A stretch of DNA of 26,677 nucleotides from a virus, in IMG/VR virus record IMGVR_UViG_3300044614_000589, positions 1 through 26,677 of that record; one strand, given 5' to 3'. Under the pieces are notes generated by a model. That model saw only the letters and a program-made list of their open reading frames with translations, was not told the origin of the DNA and made no database searches. Positions 4,952 through 26,587 of this stretch are shown here, in pieces (the stretch's first letter is position 1; every line of letters starts with the position of its first letter). The translations under genes were made by a program, and so were the position numbers.

Positions 4952-5413
4952 ATGCAGCGATTCCATCGTACGCCACGAGCGCGGCTTTGCCGAAACCTCC
5001 TTGCACTCATTATCGGCTTGGCACTCGGTGGTTTCGCCGCGTGTAGTGCCGCCCAAGAACGTAGTATTGTCATCCACGGGTTCTCCTACCACAGCATCAA
5101 CAACAGCAGCTACAACAACGTCAACCCCGGTATTGCCTACAAGCACTCCAATAACGTCATTGTCGGTGTCTTGAAAAACTCCTACAGTGACCCGACTGTT
5201 TACCTTGGATACGTCTACCAACATAATGACTTCTTTTCAATTACACTTGGCGGTGCAGTCGGTTATGAAGAAGCTCCTGTCATGCCCCTCGTCGCTGCCA
5301 CCGCAAGCTTCCCTCTGGCTAATCGTCTACGGTTTAATGTCAGCACTCTTCCTATGCGTGCTGATGGCCGCATTGGTGTTGTCCTTCATTCTGGCTTGGA
5401 GTACCGCTTCTAA
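4952..5413 (+). CDS. Predicted outer-membrane beta-barrel protein
   Basis: 153 aa. The basic N-terminus and hydrophobic segment (LLALIIGLALGGFAAC) form a signal peptide; cleavage after SAA is likely, though FAAC might act as a weak lipobox. The mature part alternates short strands and turns (HGFSYHS, NPGIAYKHSNNVIVGVLKNSY, VYLGYVYQ, SITLGGAVGYEEAP) and ends GLEYRF. A C-terminal aromatic of this kind is the outer-membrane insertion signal. The NPG..Y / VGV.KNSY pattern resembles a widespread proteobacterial barrel family. On a phage it might alter the host surface or block further infection; that is inference. Confidence 0.7.
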   Translation: MQRFHRTPRARLCRNLLALIIGLALGGFAACSAAQERSIVIHGFSYHSINNSSYNNVNPGIAYKHSNNVIVGVLKNSYSDPTVYLGYVYQHNDFFSITLGGAVGYEEAPVMPLVAATASFPLANRLRFNVSTLPMRADGRIGVVLHSGLEYRF

Positions 5414-9150: not shown

Positions 9151-9530
9151 AAAAAGCAGGAAGGTCTTGCTTCGTATACTACAATATCCGTCGTAAGATC
9201 TTCTCTGTCAGGAACCTACGCAATGGTCTTGTCAGAGAGTACATTGAAAAAGGATGCGTATACAACTGTCTCTTTGAAGTAAGCCAATCAGGTCGTGCAC
9301 GAGTCCTCCGTGAACAAACAAAGAATATCCATGCAGGTATCCTCTGTGACACATGGATCATGAACGACCCTCGTATGAAGTCTCTTGAAGCAGTCCAAGT
9401 CACGTATAACCCTTATAAGTACGATACCTTCGTGACTGTACCTGATCTTAGACCCATTAAAGGAGCTCAATACGTTATGCTCGACAGTAAAGCTGACGTT
9501 AAGATGATTGCCTATGGACCCATTTATTGA
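9147..9530 (+). CDS. Conserved phage protein (127 aa)
   Basis: Basic, beta-rich protein: CFVYYNIRRKIFSVRNLRNG, then a central segment with SGRARVLREQTKNIHAGI and a C-terminal VTYNPYKYDTFV. The 'GR.RVL.E..KN.HA' string recurs in small early proteins of other phages; function unknown. It overlaps the upstream gene by 4 nt and the next by 17 nt. Confidence 0.65.
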   Translation: MKKAGRSCFVYYNIRRKIFSVRNLRNGLVREYIEKGCVYNCLFEVSQSGRARVLREQTKNIHAGILCDTWIMNDPRMKSLEAVQVTYNPYKYDTFVTVPDLRPIKGAQYVMLDSKADVKMIAYGPIY

Positions 9531-9699
9531 TTTCAAAGGACGAAAGTGGTACCCCTATCAGGTTGAGTTTAAAACTCCTGATGGCACCTTCGTTTTCACT
9601 ATCCATGCTCTTAACTTCGACCATGCACATATGGTTGTTGAAGAGCTTAAACAAACCGCTACCCTACAAGGACAAATTACCCATGTCGAATCTGCCTGA
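9514..9699 (+). CDS. Hypothetical protein (61 aa)
   Basis: MDPFIDFKGRKWYPYQVEFK with a mixed strand-helix end (HAHMVVEELKQTA). Unrecognised, soluble. A TTG six bases earlier could also start it. It overlaps the genes on both sides by 17 nt, consistent with the tight packing here. Confidence 0.55.
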   Translation: MDPFIDFKGRKWYPYQVEFKTPDGTFVFTIHALNFDHAHMVVEELKQTATLQGQITHVESA

Positions 9700-9937
9700 A
9701 GTTCAAATGGAAGTTCTCCAACCCGGTCACGTTCTCCTCGATAGCAACGGTATTCTGAATGTCTTCGGTTGGAAGATTAAAGACGAAGGGAATTTTAAAC
9801 AAGAAGACATGATGCTCGCCATCATGAATCATACTGCCCAACAAATCCTTAACGTCATTAACGAGATCAAAGCAAAGAAAGCTGAAGCTGTTGCTATTGA
9901 AGAACCGAAACCCCTCGTCATTACTGCTACTAACTAA
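9683..9937 (+). CDS. Hypothetical protein (84 aa)
   Basis: MSNLPEVQMEVLQPGHVLLD, NVFGWKI, then a long helix (EDMMLAIMNHTAQQILNVIN) and an Ala/Glu/Lys tail. Possibly a small oligomerising protein. AAGGA lies about 9 nt before the ATG. No known motif. Confidence 0.6.
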   Translation: MSNLPEVQMEVLQPGHVLLDSNGILNVFGWKIKDEGNFKQEDMMLAIMNHTAQQILNVINEIKAKKAEAVAIEEPKPLVITATN

Positions 9938-9938
9938 C

Positions 9939-10181
9939 ATGAAACGACTTCGCTACGTTCCTGACGAATACTACCGTGACTTCAACTACTCTGTTGATGT
10001 CGAATACATGGTTAATATTGCTAAAGCTCGTGGCTACATTGTAAGTCCTAGTGACGTTCGTCTTGCTTGGGAACATTATAGTGATAGTATGGCGGCAAGT
10101 TGGATGCTTGTCGACCATGATAACGAAGAACGAGTGTGGGCCACGCTTCGACCGCTACTTACTGATGACTACGGTGAATAA
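9939..10181 (+). CDS. Hypothetical protein (80 aa)
   Basis: Acidic, helical small protein with many Tyr and Trp (RYVPDEYYRDFNYSVDVEYM; LAWEHYSDSMAASWM). Unrecognised. It starts 2 nt after the preceding stop and ends directly before the DNA ligase gene. Confidence 0.6.
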   Translation: MKRLRYVPDEYYRDFNYSVDVEYMVNIAKARGYIVSPSDVRLAWEHYSDSMAASWMLVDHDNEERVWATLRPLLTDDYGE

Positions 10182-21690: not shown

Positions 21691-22080
21691 ATGCGTCTAA
21701 TTGTTGCTGGTAGTCGTAAAGGTTTTACTAAGCAAGAAGTCTTTGATGGTATTGAACAGTTTCTTACTGAGCGTAACATTGGCATGACTCAACTTGTTAG
21801 TGGTGATGCAGTGGGAGTAGACACTTGGGGTTGTCTCTGGGCAACTAAGAATGATATCCCCATTAAACACTTCCCTGCACAGTGGTATCCTAATGGTAGT
21901 AACAAGCTAGATCGAAGTGCCGGTCCTAAGCGCAATAGTGAGATGGCTTCTTATGCTGATGGTCTCATTGCGTTTTGGGACGGTAAGTCTCCCGGTACTA
22001 AAGACATGATTACTAAGATGGAAAAACAAAAGAATAAGTTTGTGAAAGTGTATATCAAGAAGCAGGCCCCTAATACCTAA
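21691..22080 (+). CDS. SLOG-family (DUF2493/YspA-like) nucleotide-binding protein
   Basis: 129 aa. RLIVAGSRKGF at the N-terminus, LVSGDAVGVDTWGCLWA, FPAQWYPNG, AGPKRNSEMASYADGLIAFW and SPGTKDMI. This is the YspA/DprA-related SLOG Rossmann pattern that binds nucleotides or related ligands. The role in phages is unknown; its place beside RNR suggests nucleotide metabolism or signalling. AAGGAA precedes it and a competing ATG at 21686 is out of frame. The C-terminal KKQAPNT is encoded by a GCAGGCCCC element. Confidence 0.75.
   Translation: MRLIVAGSRKGFTKQEVFDGIEQFLTERNIGMTQLVSGDAVGVDTWGCLWATKNDIPIKHFPAQWYPNGSNKLDRSAGPKRNSEMASYADGLIAFWDGKSPGTKDMITKMEKQKNKFVKVYIKKQAPNT
22062..22080 (+). promoter_or_regulatory. 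Partial GCAGGCCCC element before RNR
   Basis: GCAGGCCCCTAATACCTAA has the conserved block but lacks the G at the expected initiation position, so promoter activity is doubtful. It overlaps the 3' end of the SLOG gene, 27 nt before the RNR start. Confidence 0.3.
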
Positions 22081-22106: not shown

Positions 22107-24014
22107 ATGCTTAATACCTACCAAGAGTTCATTGCTAAGTCCCGATACTCTCGATATCTCCCCGAACAGTATCGTCGTGAGAGTTGGGATGAGACTGTGG
22201 ATCGTTGGGAAGACTTCTTCCATGGTTATCTAAAAGAAAAGTATCCTGAAGCTTGGCCCAAGCTTGAAGATACTTTCAATGAAGCTGTTCAAGGTATTCG
22301 TGTGATGGATGTTCTTCCGTCAATGCGTAGTATCATGACAGCTGGTCCTGCACTGGCCCGCAATCATGTCGCGGCCTATAATTGTTCTTATCTTCCGGTC
22401 GACCACCTCTGGTCGTTCGACGAAGCAATGTTCATTCTACTGTCTGGCACTGGTGTCGGCTTTAGTGTTGAGCAGAAGTATGTTACACTTATTAATGCTG
22501 ATGTTCTTCCTAGCATCCCTTGGCTAACTGAAGAAGATCGTACAATTGTCGTTGAGGACAGCAAAGAAGGATGGTGCTATGCCTTTCGAGATCTCATTAC
22601 CAGTCTTTATGCTGGTCGGGTTCCTAAGTGGGATACTAGTAGGGTTCGTCCTGCTGGTGCGCCTCTTAAAACGTTTGGTGGCCGAGCAAGTGGGCCGGAG
22701 CCTCTGGTAGCCCTCTTCGAGTACACTATTAATAAATTCCATAATGCTGTCGGCCGTAAGCTTACCACCATTGAAGTCCATGACATCATGTGTAAGATCG
22801 GCGACATTGTTGTCGTTGGTGGTGTTCGTCGTAGTGCTATGATTAGCCTTGGTAATCTTGATGACCACCTTCATGCTCTTGCTAAGAGTGGTGAATGGTG
22901 GAAAACTAATCCTGAGCGCCGTCTTGCTAACAACAGTGCTGTCTACGAGACTAAACCTACTATTGGTCAGTTCATGAAAGAGTGGGTTAGTCTTTACGAG
23001 TCTCACTCTGGTGAACGAGGTATCTTCAACAGGGAAGCTAGCAAAAAACAAGCTGCTAAGTTTGGCCGTCGTCCTTATGATGTTGACTACGGTACCAACC
23101 CTTGCTCTGAGATTATCCTTCGTCCTTATCAGTTCTGTAATCTGTCTACCGTAGTTGTTCGTCCTACTGATGATAGGCAAGAACTCTATAGGAAAGTTCG
23201 TCTGGCTTCTTTCATTGGTACTATTCAGAGTACACTCACTGACTTCCCGTACCTACGTCCTATCTGGAAAGAGCAGACTGAAGCAGAAAGGCTTCTTGGT
23301 GTGTCTATGACTGGTATTCTTGGTAACAAATTTCTGCTTGAAGACAGCCCTACATTCTTCCTAAAAACTCTCCTAGAGACTCTCCGAGATGCCGCTGTCG
23401 AGACTAACTTTACGTTTGCTGACATGATTGGTATTCCACGTAGTGCAGCTGTTACTTGTGTGAAGCCTGAAGGTACTGTTAGCCAGCTGACACTTACTGA
23501 AAGCGGTCTTCATGCTGGTCATGCTCCTTACTACATCCGTCGAGTCAGGCAAGACTTCAAAGATCCTCTTACTCAATTCCTCATTGATGAAGGAGTTCCT
23601 AATGAACCCTGTGTCATGTCTCCTAAGTCTACCTGTGTATTTTCCTTCCCTATGCGTGCAAGTGGTATCACTCGTCACGACCTTACTGCTATTGAACACC
23701 TAGACATCTGGCTTAAGTTTCAGCGTCATTGGTGTGAGCATAAACCTTCTATCACTATCAGTGTTAAAGAACACGAGTGGATGGAAGTAGGTGCTTGGGT
23801 TTGGGAACACTTTGATGAATGTACTGGTATTAGTTTCCTACCGGATGACGGTGGTACCTACCAGCAGGCCCCTTATGAAGACATCACTGAAGACAAGTAC
23901 AACGAACTAGTTGCTGCTATGCCTCATGTTGATTGGGCTAGGTTCTTTGAGATTCAAGATAATGTTGAAGGCGCTCAGATGCTAGCTTGTACTAGTGGAG
24001 GATGTCAAATCTAA
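22107..24014 (+). CDS. Class II (adenosylcobalamin-dependent) ribonucleotide reductase
   Basis: 635 aa, a monomeric RTPR-type enzyme (Lactobacillus enzyme 739). AYNCSYLP gives C93; TNPCSEI gives C333, the thiyl-radical Cys, and QFCNLS gives C344, exactly the 11-residue spacing of C408/C419 in the Lactobacillus enzyme. The tail CTSGGCQI supplies C628/C633, the shuttle pair with the usual spacing. It reduces ribonucleoside triphosphates to dNTPs and needs no oxygen or small subunit, but needs cobalamin from the host. AGGAAAG precedes the ATG. All catalytic cysteines are present, so it looks functional. Confidence 0.9.
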   Translation: MLNTYQEFIAKSRYSRYLPEQYRRESWDETVDRWEDFFHGYLKEKYPEAWPKLEDTFNEAVQGIRVMDVLPSMRSIMTAGPALARNHVAAYNCSYLPVDHLWSFDEAMFILLSGTGVGFSVEQKYVTLINADVLPSIPWLTEEDRTIVVEDSKEGWCYAFRDLITSLYAGRVPKWDTSRVRPAGAPLKTFGGRASGPEPLVALFEYTINKFHNAVGRKLTTIEVHDIMCKIGDIVVVGGVRRSAMISLGNLDDHLHALAKSGEWWKTNPERRLANNSAVYETKPTIGQFMKEWVSLYESHSGERGIFNREASKKQAAKFGRRPYDVDYGTNPCSEIILRPYQFCNLSTVVVRPTDDRQELYRKVRLASFIGTIQSTLTDFPYLRPIWKEQTEAERLLGVSMTGILGNKFLLEDSPTFFLKTLLETLRDAAVETNFTFADMIGIPRSAAVTCVKPEGTVSQLTLTESGLHAGHAPYYIRRVRQDFKDPLTQFLIDEGVPNEPCVMSPKSTCVFSFPMRASGITRHDLTAIEHLDIWLKFQRHWCEHKPSITISVKEHEWMEVGAWVWEHFDECTGISFLPDDGGTYQQAPYEDITEDKYNELVAAMPHVDWARFFEIQDNVEGAQMLACTSGGCQI

Positions 24015-24060
24015 GCACACCTTCTAGCTGGCCCCTAATAGGAAAACTAAAGGGTGTGCT
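24014..24060 (+). promoter_or_regulatory. Inverted repeat enclosing a promoter-like site, before homing endonuclease
   Basis: AGCACACC (24014-24021) and GGTGTGCT (24053-24060) are perfect 8-bp arms. The right arm ends at the base before ATG 24061 and includes part of the AAAGGG ribosome site. The 31-nt loop holds GCTGGCCCCTAATAGGA (24027-24043), a one-mismatch copy of the phage promoter-like element. Full-length RNA would fold and hide the ribosome site; RNA begun at about 24041 would lack the left arm. Confidence 0.6.
24027..24046 (+). promoter_or_regulatory. Phage RNA polymerase promoter-like element
   Basis: GCTGGCCCCTAATAGGAAAA. It matches the sites at 1612, 12937 and 26227 with one change in the conserved block, and CTAATAGG resembles the T7-type initiation region. 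It lies in the loop of the inverted repeat before 24061. Confidence 0.5.
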
Positions 24061-24501
24061 ATGCCTAATCAATATTCAAATAATGAGCTACGAAAGGGAG
24101 AACAGTTCCGTAATTGGACTGTTCTTTCTTTTTCGCACAAAGGTTCTAATGGTAATTGGTACTATAACTGTAAATGTAGTTGTGGTAATAAACAAGCTGT
24201 TAAGGCTTCTAACCTACGTACAGGTAAAAGCTCTTCTTGTAAGTCTTGTGTAGCTAAAGCTAATGGTCGTAAGGGGCTTAACATACAGGCTAAGCAAGAC
24301 TTGTATATCATCAAATGCGGTAAGTACATCAAAATTGGTAGCACAGATAATATAGAACGTCGTTTAAAGAATATCCAACATAGTAACCCGTTCAAAATTA
24401 CTTTGCTATATCACGGTGTAGGGCTAGGATATCTAGAATCTACGCTACACAATATCCACAAAGACGATCACCATCACGGTGAATGGTTTCACCTAAGGTA
24501 A
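24061..24501 (+). CDS. Zinc-finger GIY-YIG homing endonuclease
   Basis: 146 aa. The N-terminal half (GEQFRNWTVL; NWYYNCKCSCGNKQAVKASN; SSSCKSC, with C37, C39, C41, C60, C63) is the Cys-rich DNA-binding unit often found on phage homing endonucleases. The C-terminal half (LYIIKCGKYIKIGST, NIERRLKNIQ, LESTLHNIH with E126, GEWFHL) is a T5orf172/MUG113-type GIY-YIG nuclease. It is freestanding, directly after the intact RNR gene, a common landing place for such elements. Its translation seems controlled by the hairpin that ends at its start codon. Confidence 0.8.
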   Translation: MPNQYSNNELRKGEQFRNWTVLSFSHKGSNGNWYYNCKCSCGNKQAVKASNLRTGKSSSCKSCVAKANGRKGLNIQAKQDLYIIKCGKYIKIGSTDNIERRLKNIQHSNPFKITLLYHGVGLGYLESTLHNIHKDDHHHGEWFHLR

Positions 24502-26056: not shown

Positions 26057-26251
26057 ATGAGCACTAGACAGCTACAAGTTGGTGACTGGATTAAATACTG
26101 GAATGGTACTCAGTTGAGAATTAGTGAAATCAATTTTGTAAGTGACGTTGGATACAACAGGGTTTACTATACTTTCGATAGTGACATGGTACCTCCCGAT
26201 AAGGTTCTTGACTATCGGCCTATGAAGCAGGCCCCTATAGAGAAACACTAA
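26057..26251 (+). CDS. Hypothetical protein (64 aa)
   Basis: LQVGDWIKYWNGTQLRISEI, then a beta-rich RVYYTFDSDMV and DYRPMKQAPIEKH. Likely a small beta-barrel; no function known. Starts 2 nt after the RNA ligase stop. The codons for KQAP are part of the promoter-like element that faces the tRNA cluster. Confidence 0.6.
   Translation: MSTRQLQVGDWIKYWNGTQLRISEINFVSDVGYNRVYYTFDSDMVPPDKVLDYRPMKQAPIEKH
26227..26246 (+). promoter_or_regulatory. Phage RNA polymerase promoter-like element before tRNAs
   Basis: GCAGGCCCCTATAGAGAAAC: the conserved block followed by CTATAGAG, close to the T7 and SP6 initiation region CTATAG. It overlaps the last codons of the 64-aa gene and would drive the three tRNA genes. 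Confidence 0.55.
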
Positions 26252-26346
26252 AAGTGCTTCAATAGAATCCTACTACCTTAGGTCCGTTAACGGATCGGCC
26301 AACCGTCAATGGGGTGTGAAGCCCCTCTATATTCTTTCAGTACAAT
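26252..26346 (+). other. Structured non-coding gap before the tRNAs
   Basis: No gene seen. It contains a perfect 12-bp palindrome TCCGTTAACGGA (26283-26294), a GGGG-TGTGAAG-CCCC hairpin (26311-26325) followed by a pyrimidine-rich stretch, and a long-range GCTTCA (26256-26261) / TGAAGC (26317-26322) match. It may be a leader or processing structure for the tRNA transcript, or a weak terminator. Confidence 0.3.
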
Positions 26347-26421
26347 TTCCCGGTAGTTTAACGGCAAAATGCTGGTCTCCAAAACCATGCGATCGCGGTT
26401 CGAATCCGTGCCGGGTTGCCA
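26347..26421 (+). tRNA. tRNA-Trp (CCA anticodon)
   Basis: Cloverleaf of 75 nt: D arm GTTT/AAAT, anticodon loop CTCCAAA, 5-nt variable loop, T arm CGCGG-TTCGAAT-CCGTG, discriminator G and encoded CCA. G73 is the usual Trp identity base. The acceptor is odd: TTCCCGG against CCGGGTT leaves positions 1-72 and 2-71 as T-T mismatches. The top of the anticodon stem (27-43) is C-T. Confidence 0.8.
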
Positions 26422-26428
26422 TACACAT

Positions 26429-26504
26429 GCTGGTTTAGCTCAGATGGCAGAGCAGGCGCCTTGTAAGCGTCAGGTCGTGGGTTCGATGCCTACAACCAGC
26501 ACCA
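26429..26504 (+). tRNA. tRNA-Thr (TGT anticodon)
   Basis: Full cloverleaf of 76 nt: acceptor GCTGGTT/AACCAGC, anticodon stem GGCGC/GCGTC around CTTGTAA, T loop TTCGATG, discriminator A and encoded CCA. Reads ACA. All stems pair well. Confidence 0.9.
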
Positions 26505-26512
26505 ATCATTAT

Positions 26513-26587
26513 TGCAGGTTAGATCAGTGGTAGATCAAGGGTCTCATAAGCCTTCCGTCAGTAGTTCGATTCTACTACCCGCAACCA
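26513..26587 (+). tRNA. tRNA with CAT anticodon (Met or Ile2)
   Basis: Cloverleaf of 75 nt: acceptor TGCAGGT/ACCCGCA with one A-C mismatch at 4-69, D stem GATC/GATC, anticodon stem AGGGT/GCCTT, T arm AGTAG-TTCGATT-CTACT, discriminator A and encoded CCA. The 1-72 pair is intact and the three G-C pairs of initiators are absent, so it is not initiator tRNA. Elongator Met or a lysidine-modified Ile tRNA are both possible. Confidence 0.85.

Follow-up and report, generated by a model that had tools for sequence, protein, structure and literature searches.

A candidate promoter-in-hairpin gate on a putative mobile nuclease gene in a phage with a single-subunit RNA polymerase

Between the gene for a class II ribonucleotide reductase (RNR) and a small nuclease gene, the viral DNA analysed here (the window, all 26,677 nt of IMG/VR virus record IMGVR_UViG_3300044614_000589) holds only 46 bases from the RNR stop codon to the nuclease ATG (GCACACCTTCTAGCTGGCCCCTAATAGGAAAACTAAAGGGTGTGCT). 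This short stretch contains a phage promoter-like element inside a predicted hairpin that reaches over the ribosome site of the nuclease gene. Does this arrangement silence the nuclease on RNA reading through from RNR and leave it to be expressed from its own promoter? The first-pass annotation proposed as much, by analogy with I-TevI of phage T4. Late-promoter/hairpin control is described for T4 I-TevI, I-TevII, I-TevIII and segB and for mobE of phage Aeh1, and the I-TevI protein binds an operator overlapping the late promoter of its own gene (PMC2988022). The start sites of T4 genes e, soc and 49 are masked in early read-through RNA, and their late transcripts lack the 5' strand (PMC3014915). 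Our analysis, in which all evidence for a gate is computational, finds the anatomy described earlier to be right and supports its interpretation. We put the probability at about two in three that a promoter-in-hairpin gate acts on this mobile nuclease gene, with the logic of T4 I-TevI and another polymerase. The features of the locus are collected in Table 1.

Table 1. Features of the polymerase, RNR and nuclease region, in window positions.
Feature	Position	Strand	Remarks
Single-subunit (T7-type) RNA polymerase, 737 aa	19468..21681	+	Pfam RNA_pol PF00940, E 8e-64; phmmer match to T7 RNA polymerase chains
Phage promoter copy 5' of RNR, AGCAGGCCCCTAAT followed by AC	22061..22076	+	Candidate source of RNA reading through RNR into the nuclease gene
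Class II (B12-dependent) ribonucleotide reductase (RNR)	22107..24014	+	Pfam RNR-II_ins_dom, Ribonuc_red_lgC
RNR stop codon TAA	24012-24014	+	
Hairpin left arm, AGCACACCUU	24014..24023	+	In read-through RNA only
Putative phage promoter in loop, AGCTGGCCCCTAAT followed by AGG	24026..24042	+	Likely +1 A24040, or G24041
Hairpin right arm, AGGGUGUGCU	24051..24060	+	Over most of the Shine-Dalgarno (SD) sequence; adjoins start codon
Nuclease gene, 146 aa	24061..24501	+	ATG 24061-24063; MUG113/T5orf172 matches

The loop element (AGCTGGCCCCTAATAGG, 24026-24042) is a well-supported candidate promoter for the single-subunit polymerase that the phage itself encodes. Other copies stand at 1611, 12936, 22061 and 26226, all sharing the form AGC(A/T)GGCCCCTA, and the exact GGCCCCTA occurs five times on the + strand of the window and not once on the - strand. 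A search with the window polymerase yielded 75 relatives; in 54 of the 64 whose post-polymerase junction was available, the polymerase gene is directly followed by GGNNCCTAAT(A) or a variant of that form, and 90-odd intergenic copies in the relatives lie 5' of genes and tRNAs. Polymerase and element vary together. Between phages with.CCCC promoters and those with promoters of the GGTACC type, polymerase residues 599 and 616 (also 119 and 728) differ without exception and residues 607, 611 and 612 nearly consistently; in the alignment, residues 599-616 fall on the specificity loop region of the T7 enzyme. The window polymerase is overall closest to those of GGTGCC phages, yet its loop residues and its promoters have both changed, a joint change that is expected of a polymerase and its own promoter. 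The protein itself is only about 25-30% identical to any polymerase of an isolated phage, the best match being that of Roseobacter phage CRP-7. Across L002-L075 the recognition bases run through GGTACC, GGTGCC, GGAACC, GTCCCC, GACCCC and GGCCCC with matching specificity-loop changes, a natural series that is useful for orthogonal polymerase-promoter pairs.

T7-type promoters are compact and oriented, end in C-TAAT/TATA/TAAA right before +1 and are read by the specificity loop; an end of C-TAAT followed by A is the layout of those that start with A. The window element resembles the T7 phi2.5, T3, SP6 and Syn5 promoters in being compact and oriented, with probable specificity-loop recognition, but differs from T7-type promoters in its recognition bases, which in these phages are GGCCCC or GGTACC. 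A polymerase gene is present together with a repeated, oriented and polymerase-matched element, and the element is of this single-subunit-polymerase type, not a T4 late promoter (sigma gp55, TATAAATA). The hairpin gate would thus work like that of T4 but stand outside the T4 lineage. Alignment with T7-type promoters places the likely +1 at A24040 (CCCCTAAT followed by AGG), one base before the start near 24041 given in the first-pass annotation; 24040, or 24041, is the likely transcript start.

Some promoter copies stand in other settings. One precedes a cluster of three tRNA genes (26226-26584 in the window), and many relatives carry a promoter before tRNAs and after a thioredoxin-like gene. 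The copy at 1611-1640 sits in a 200-base gap between opposite-strand genes, where no protein start is obvious shortly downstream. In L228, three near-identical copies follow one another in tandem within about 100 bases (5123-5223, - strand).

The hairpin around the loop promoter has perfect 8-bp arms, AGCACACC (24014-24021) and GGTGTGCT (24053-24060), separated by 31 nt, just as the earlier annotation had it. U24022-G24052 and U24023-A24051 extend the stem inward to ten pairs, one of them G-U, and the predicted fold has a minimum free energy of -18.5 kcal/mol (z -2.6; 4 of 200 shuffles as good). The right arm was said to touch the start codon and cover part of the ribosome site; it does reach the ATG and takes in most of the SD AAAGGG (24049-24054). 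On read-through RNA, the SD and start codon are predicted to lie in a stable helix. A terminator reading of the hairpin was rejected, as the + strand holds no terminator-like site from RNR to the nuclease gene and the stem is not followed by a U-run. Membership of a known RNA family was also rejected, the RNA-family matches in the window being tRNAs only.

Chance could produce such a structure. The promoter would then merely drive the nuclease, and both the repeat and the pairing between promoter and SD would be accidents of a GC-rich promoter beside a purine-rich ribosome site, with no regulation involved. Inverted repeats with perfect 8-bp arms and 3-40 nt loops number 18 in the window, against 16.0 +/- 4.7 in shuffled sequence, so the repeat by itself is unremarkable. 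Of the 18, however, the repeat at 24014-24060 is alone in having its right arm over a start site and alone in enclosing a promoter copy, and an equally long arm arose in none of 300 reshufflings of the upstream flank.

How much each part of the structure contributes can be read from the cost computed for opening the start site. In read-through RNA the cost is about 13.7 kcal/mol. It drops to 9.7 kcal/mol if the left arm is absent and the promoter kept, and to 9.5 +/- 0.2 kcal/mol if the left arm is scrambled; RNA from 24032 on costs 4.8 kcal/mol and RNA initiated at 24040 only 2.1 kcal/mol. With other fold boundaries the read-through cost is 8.9 kcal/mol, and the masking gain, which varies with context, therefore amounts to 7-12 kcal/mol. 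In the window the SD is masked both by the left arm and by GGCCCCU of the promoter. The promoter supplies much of the masking, which adds to the earlier reading. As the left arm ends at 24023, a transcript begun at 24040 or 24041 would lack the 5' strand of the helix. No masking of the start site was computed at the RNR promoter at 22061 (difference -0.5 kcal/mol). When the far upstream flank alone was shuffled and the promoter kept, 25% of shuffles masked as strongly as the window; the promoter's own pairing with the SD makes the window unexceptional by this measure. For the same reason the flank shuffle was rejected as sole null, and nuclease junctions were instead compared with the junctions of other genes.

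The gene downstream probably encodes a free-standing homing endonuclease. Its 146-aa product matches MUG113 (E 2e-7) and T5orf172 (E 1.5e-6), both above cut-off, and has no match to PF01541 at E 0.001; it would thus be a T5orf172/MUG113-type relative of the GIY-YIG nucleases and not a canonical PF01541 member. An N-terminal zinc-finger-like part, CxCxCG...CxxC, in which it differs from the T5orf172/MUG113 branch, precedes the C-terminal T5orf172/MUG113 part of this putative nuclease. AlphaFold2 modelling with two input sequences gave a pLDDT of 38. In viral and genome collections and phage records we found a single close homologue, in L033, which is 53% identical, exceeds the cut-off of the same two models and occupies the same site after RNR. 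The exact element AGYTGGCCCCTAATAGG occurs in the viral collection on the L033 contig only. L033 also has the promoter at the same place after RNR, as the sole carrier of the nuclease gene among 37 RNR junctions of relatives; in all 36 nuclease-less junctions the element is absent from the 80 nt after RNR. In L033 a thioredoxin-like gene follows the nuclease gene, whereas in other phages it follows RNR directly, which indicates that promoter and nuclease gene came as one insertion. This patchy presence at a conserved junction, with a clean insertion in L033, fits a homing endonuclease gene. The site just 3' of RNR is also a hot spot for nuclease genes more widely, with T5orf172-type genes in the window and L033 and Endonuclease_7 genes in L259-L262.

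A lack of conserved arms in relatives that carry the gene had been named as a finding that would count against the gate, and here the outcome is divided. Taken literally, that finding is made, as the window's particular arms are absent from L033, but the promoter is kept, and promoter and flank pair with the SD region with a masking gain of +7.0 kcal/mol in this one homologue. L033 thus retains promoter and masking through other pairings, which suggests that the function is shared and not the arm sequence. The missing arms count in favour of chance pairing. They also bear on a DNA-level account, in which the arms form a palindromic site where the nuclease or another protein represses the enclosed promoter, as I-TevI does. 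The operator of I-TevI overlaps its own late promoter (PMC2988022) and the arms in the window are symmetrical around the promoter, but L033 has no such arms there while RNA masking persists. We consider an operator of this kind very improbable.

The masking gain in read-through RNA was computed alike at the promoter-gene junctions of the relatives; the window was excluded from the statistics, and the L071 and L074 sites, which have overlapping ORFs, were added by hand. A gain above 3 kcal/mol occurs at 8 of 16 nuclease junctions and at 4 of 76 others (Fisher 5e-5; Mann-Whitney p 0.017). With related leaders merged, the counts are 6/12 and 2/27 (p 0.006; Mann-Whitney p 0.09), and merging by protein family leaves a weak excess (Fisher p 0.048, Mann-Whitney p 0.14). 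Exact 8-bp arms around a promoter and over a start site are present at three of 92 junctions, all before nuclease genes (3 against 1.03 expected over all junctions, p 0.08). These are the window, L060 (arms CCATTAGT; a gene with a GIY-YIG sequence motif and NUMOD3) and L214 (arms ACATTGGT and ACCAATGT; Endonuclease_7, PF02945, E 1e-19), and their arm sequences are unrelated.

L071 and L074 have homologous GIY-YIG ORFs within the RNA polymerase gene (9268-10042 and 354-839, respectively), and a scan of L071 gave a group I intron match (RF00028, E 1.7e-22). The GIY-YIG ORF of the L071 intron has its own putative phage promoter and a promoter-core hairpin over its ribosome site. In both phages the predicted masking arm is the promoter core (CUAAUA/UAUUGG and CCUAAUA/UAUUAGG), and the stem is kept despite diverged leaders, with gains of 9.3 and 8.8 kcal/mol. 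At L071, L074 and L014 the pairing runs through the promoter itself, which suits pairing in RNA and not a separate operator. The strongest masking at a gene other than a nuclease is found at position 1069 of L204 (- strand), where the SD pairs with the promoter core (CTAATAGATA/TATCTTTTAG); the masked gene is promoter-driven and belongs to the same family as genes of L221, L232 and L236.

Half of the promoter-driven nuclease genes of the relatives are without masking, those of L040, L073, L004, L217 and L188 among them. This, together with the weak statistics at the level of protein families, is what chance pairing would lead one to expect. Against it, masking is enriched at nuclease junctions without the window and with related leaders merged, exact 8-bp arms stand at three different types of nuclease, and the L071 and L074 homologues retain their stem although the leaders have diverged. 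On balance we regard chance pairing as unlikely, though it is the strongest of the alternatives. A lock of this kind appears to have arisen several times among the related phages. Whether promoter-in-hairpin gates arose repeatedly and independently on mobile nucleases, both intergenic and intronic, with a promoter that doubles as anti-Shine-Dalgarno strand and so silences when transcribed and activates as promoter, we rate as an even chance.

Translational coupling offers another account of the RNA structure. The hairpin would be closed by default, ribosomes finishing RNR would open its left arm, and nuclease would be made in proportion to RNR translation. Since the left arm starts on the final base of the RNR stop codon, it would be covered by a ribosome that terminates there, which could leave the start site partly open. 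Coupling leaves unexplained, however, why a promoter lies in the loop and travels with the gene, and the masking arms of the L071 intron are located within the promoter core instead of at an upstream stop codon. We therefore think it improbable, if somewhat less so than a DNA operator.

The promoter-in-hairpin gate could operate as follows. The sequence shows an insertion behind the RNR stop codon that carries a putative phage-polymerase promoter together with a GIY-YIG-type nuclease gene, whose ribosome site can pair with the promoter and with sequence upstream of it. RNA entering from upstream, made by the host polymerase or by the phage polymerase from 22061, would fold over the start site and yield little nuclease. 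A transcript starting in the loop, near 24040, would have neither the left arm nor the pairing half of the promoter, so that its 20-nt leader would be open and translated. Nuclease output would in this way be tied to the gene's own promoter, hence to the presence of the phage polymerase, and uncoupled from transcription of the essential operon; to make nuclease synthesis dependent on the one and independent of the other is the likely purpose. Since RNR and the nuclease gene have promoters of one class, an early/late switch as clean as that of T4 is not evident, and dosage control is as likely a role as a strict early/late switch.

The predicted gate shares three features with the T4 I-TevI group. 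The ribosome site is sequestered in RNA from upstream promoters, the transcript of the gene's own promoter lacks the 5' strand of the helix, and a mobile GIY-YIG or HNH nuclease gene lies in or beside a gene of nucleotide metabolism (td, nrdB, nrdD and nrdA/nrdB there, RNR here). However, T4 relies on a late sigma factor of its own combined with the host polymerase, whereas here the polymerase is a phage-coded single-subunit enzyme; promoters and hairpins of T4 and the window are unrelated in sequence, and in several relatives, unlike T4, the promoter core is itself the masking arm. The T4 cases are experimentally tested, whereas the gates of the window and its relatives are predicted from sequence. 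T4 e, soc and 49 differ in being structural, lysis or recombination genes under another polymerase and promoter, yet gene 49 encodes endonuclease VII, and L214 likewise has an Endonuclease_7 gene with its promoter between 8-bp arms. In the open-access literature, an incomplete sample, we found reports of the mechanism in T4-type phages only and none in phages with a single-subunit polymerase.

Thus, that gating of the I-TevI type evolved separately in single-subunit-polymerase phages is the best reading of these sequences, supported by the fall in opening cost and by recurrence at unrelated nuclease genes. One sequence serving as both promoter and masking strand would make a very compact switch, an on signal as DNA and an off signal as RNA. 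The T4 gate has been read as a late-gene timing device. If our reading is true, the same architecture with an unrelated polymerase, at several types of nuclease and in a split RNA polymerase gene, interrupted by a group I intron in at least one phage, would show general selection against making mobile nucleases from read-through RNA, and these phages would provide a natural comparison that separates timing from dosage or splicing-protection explanations.
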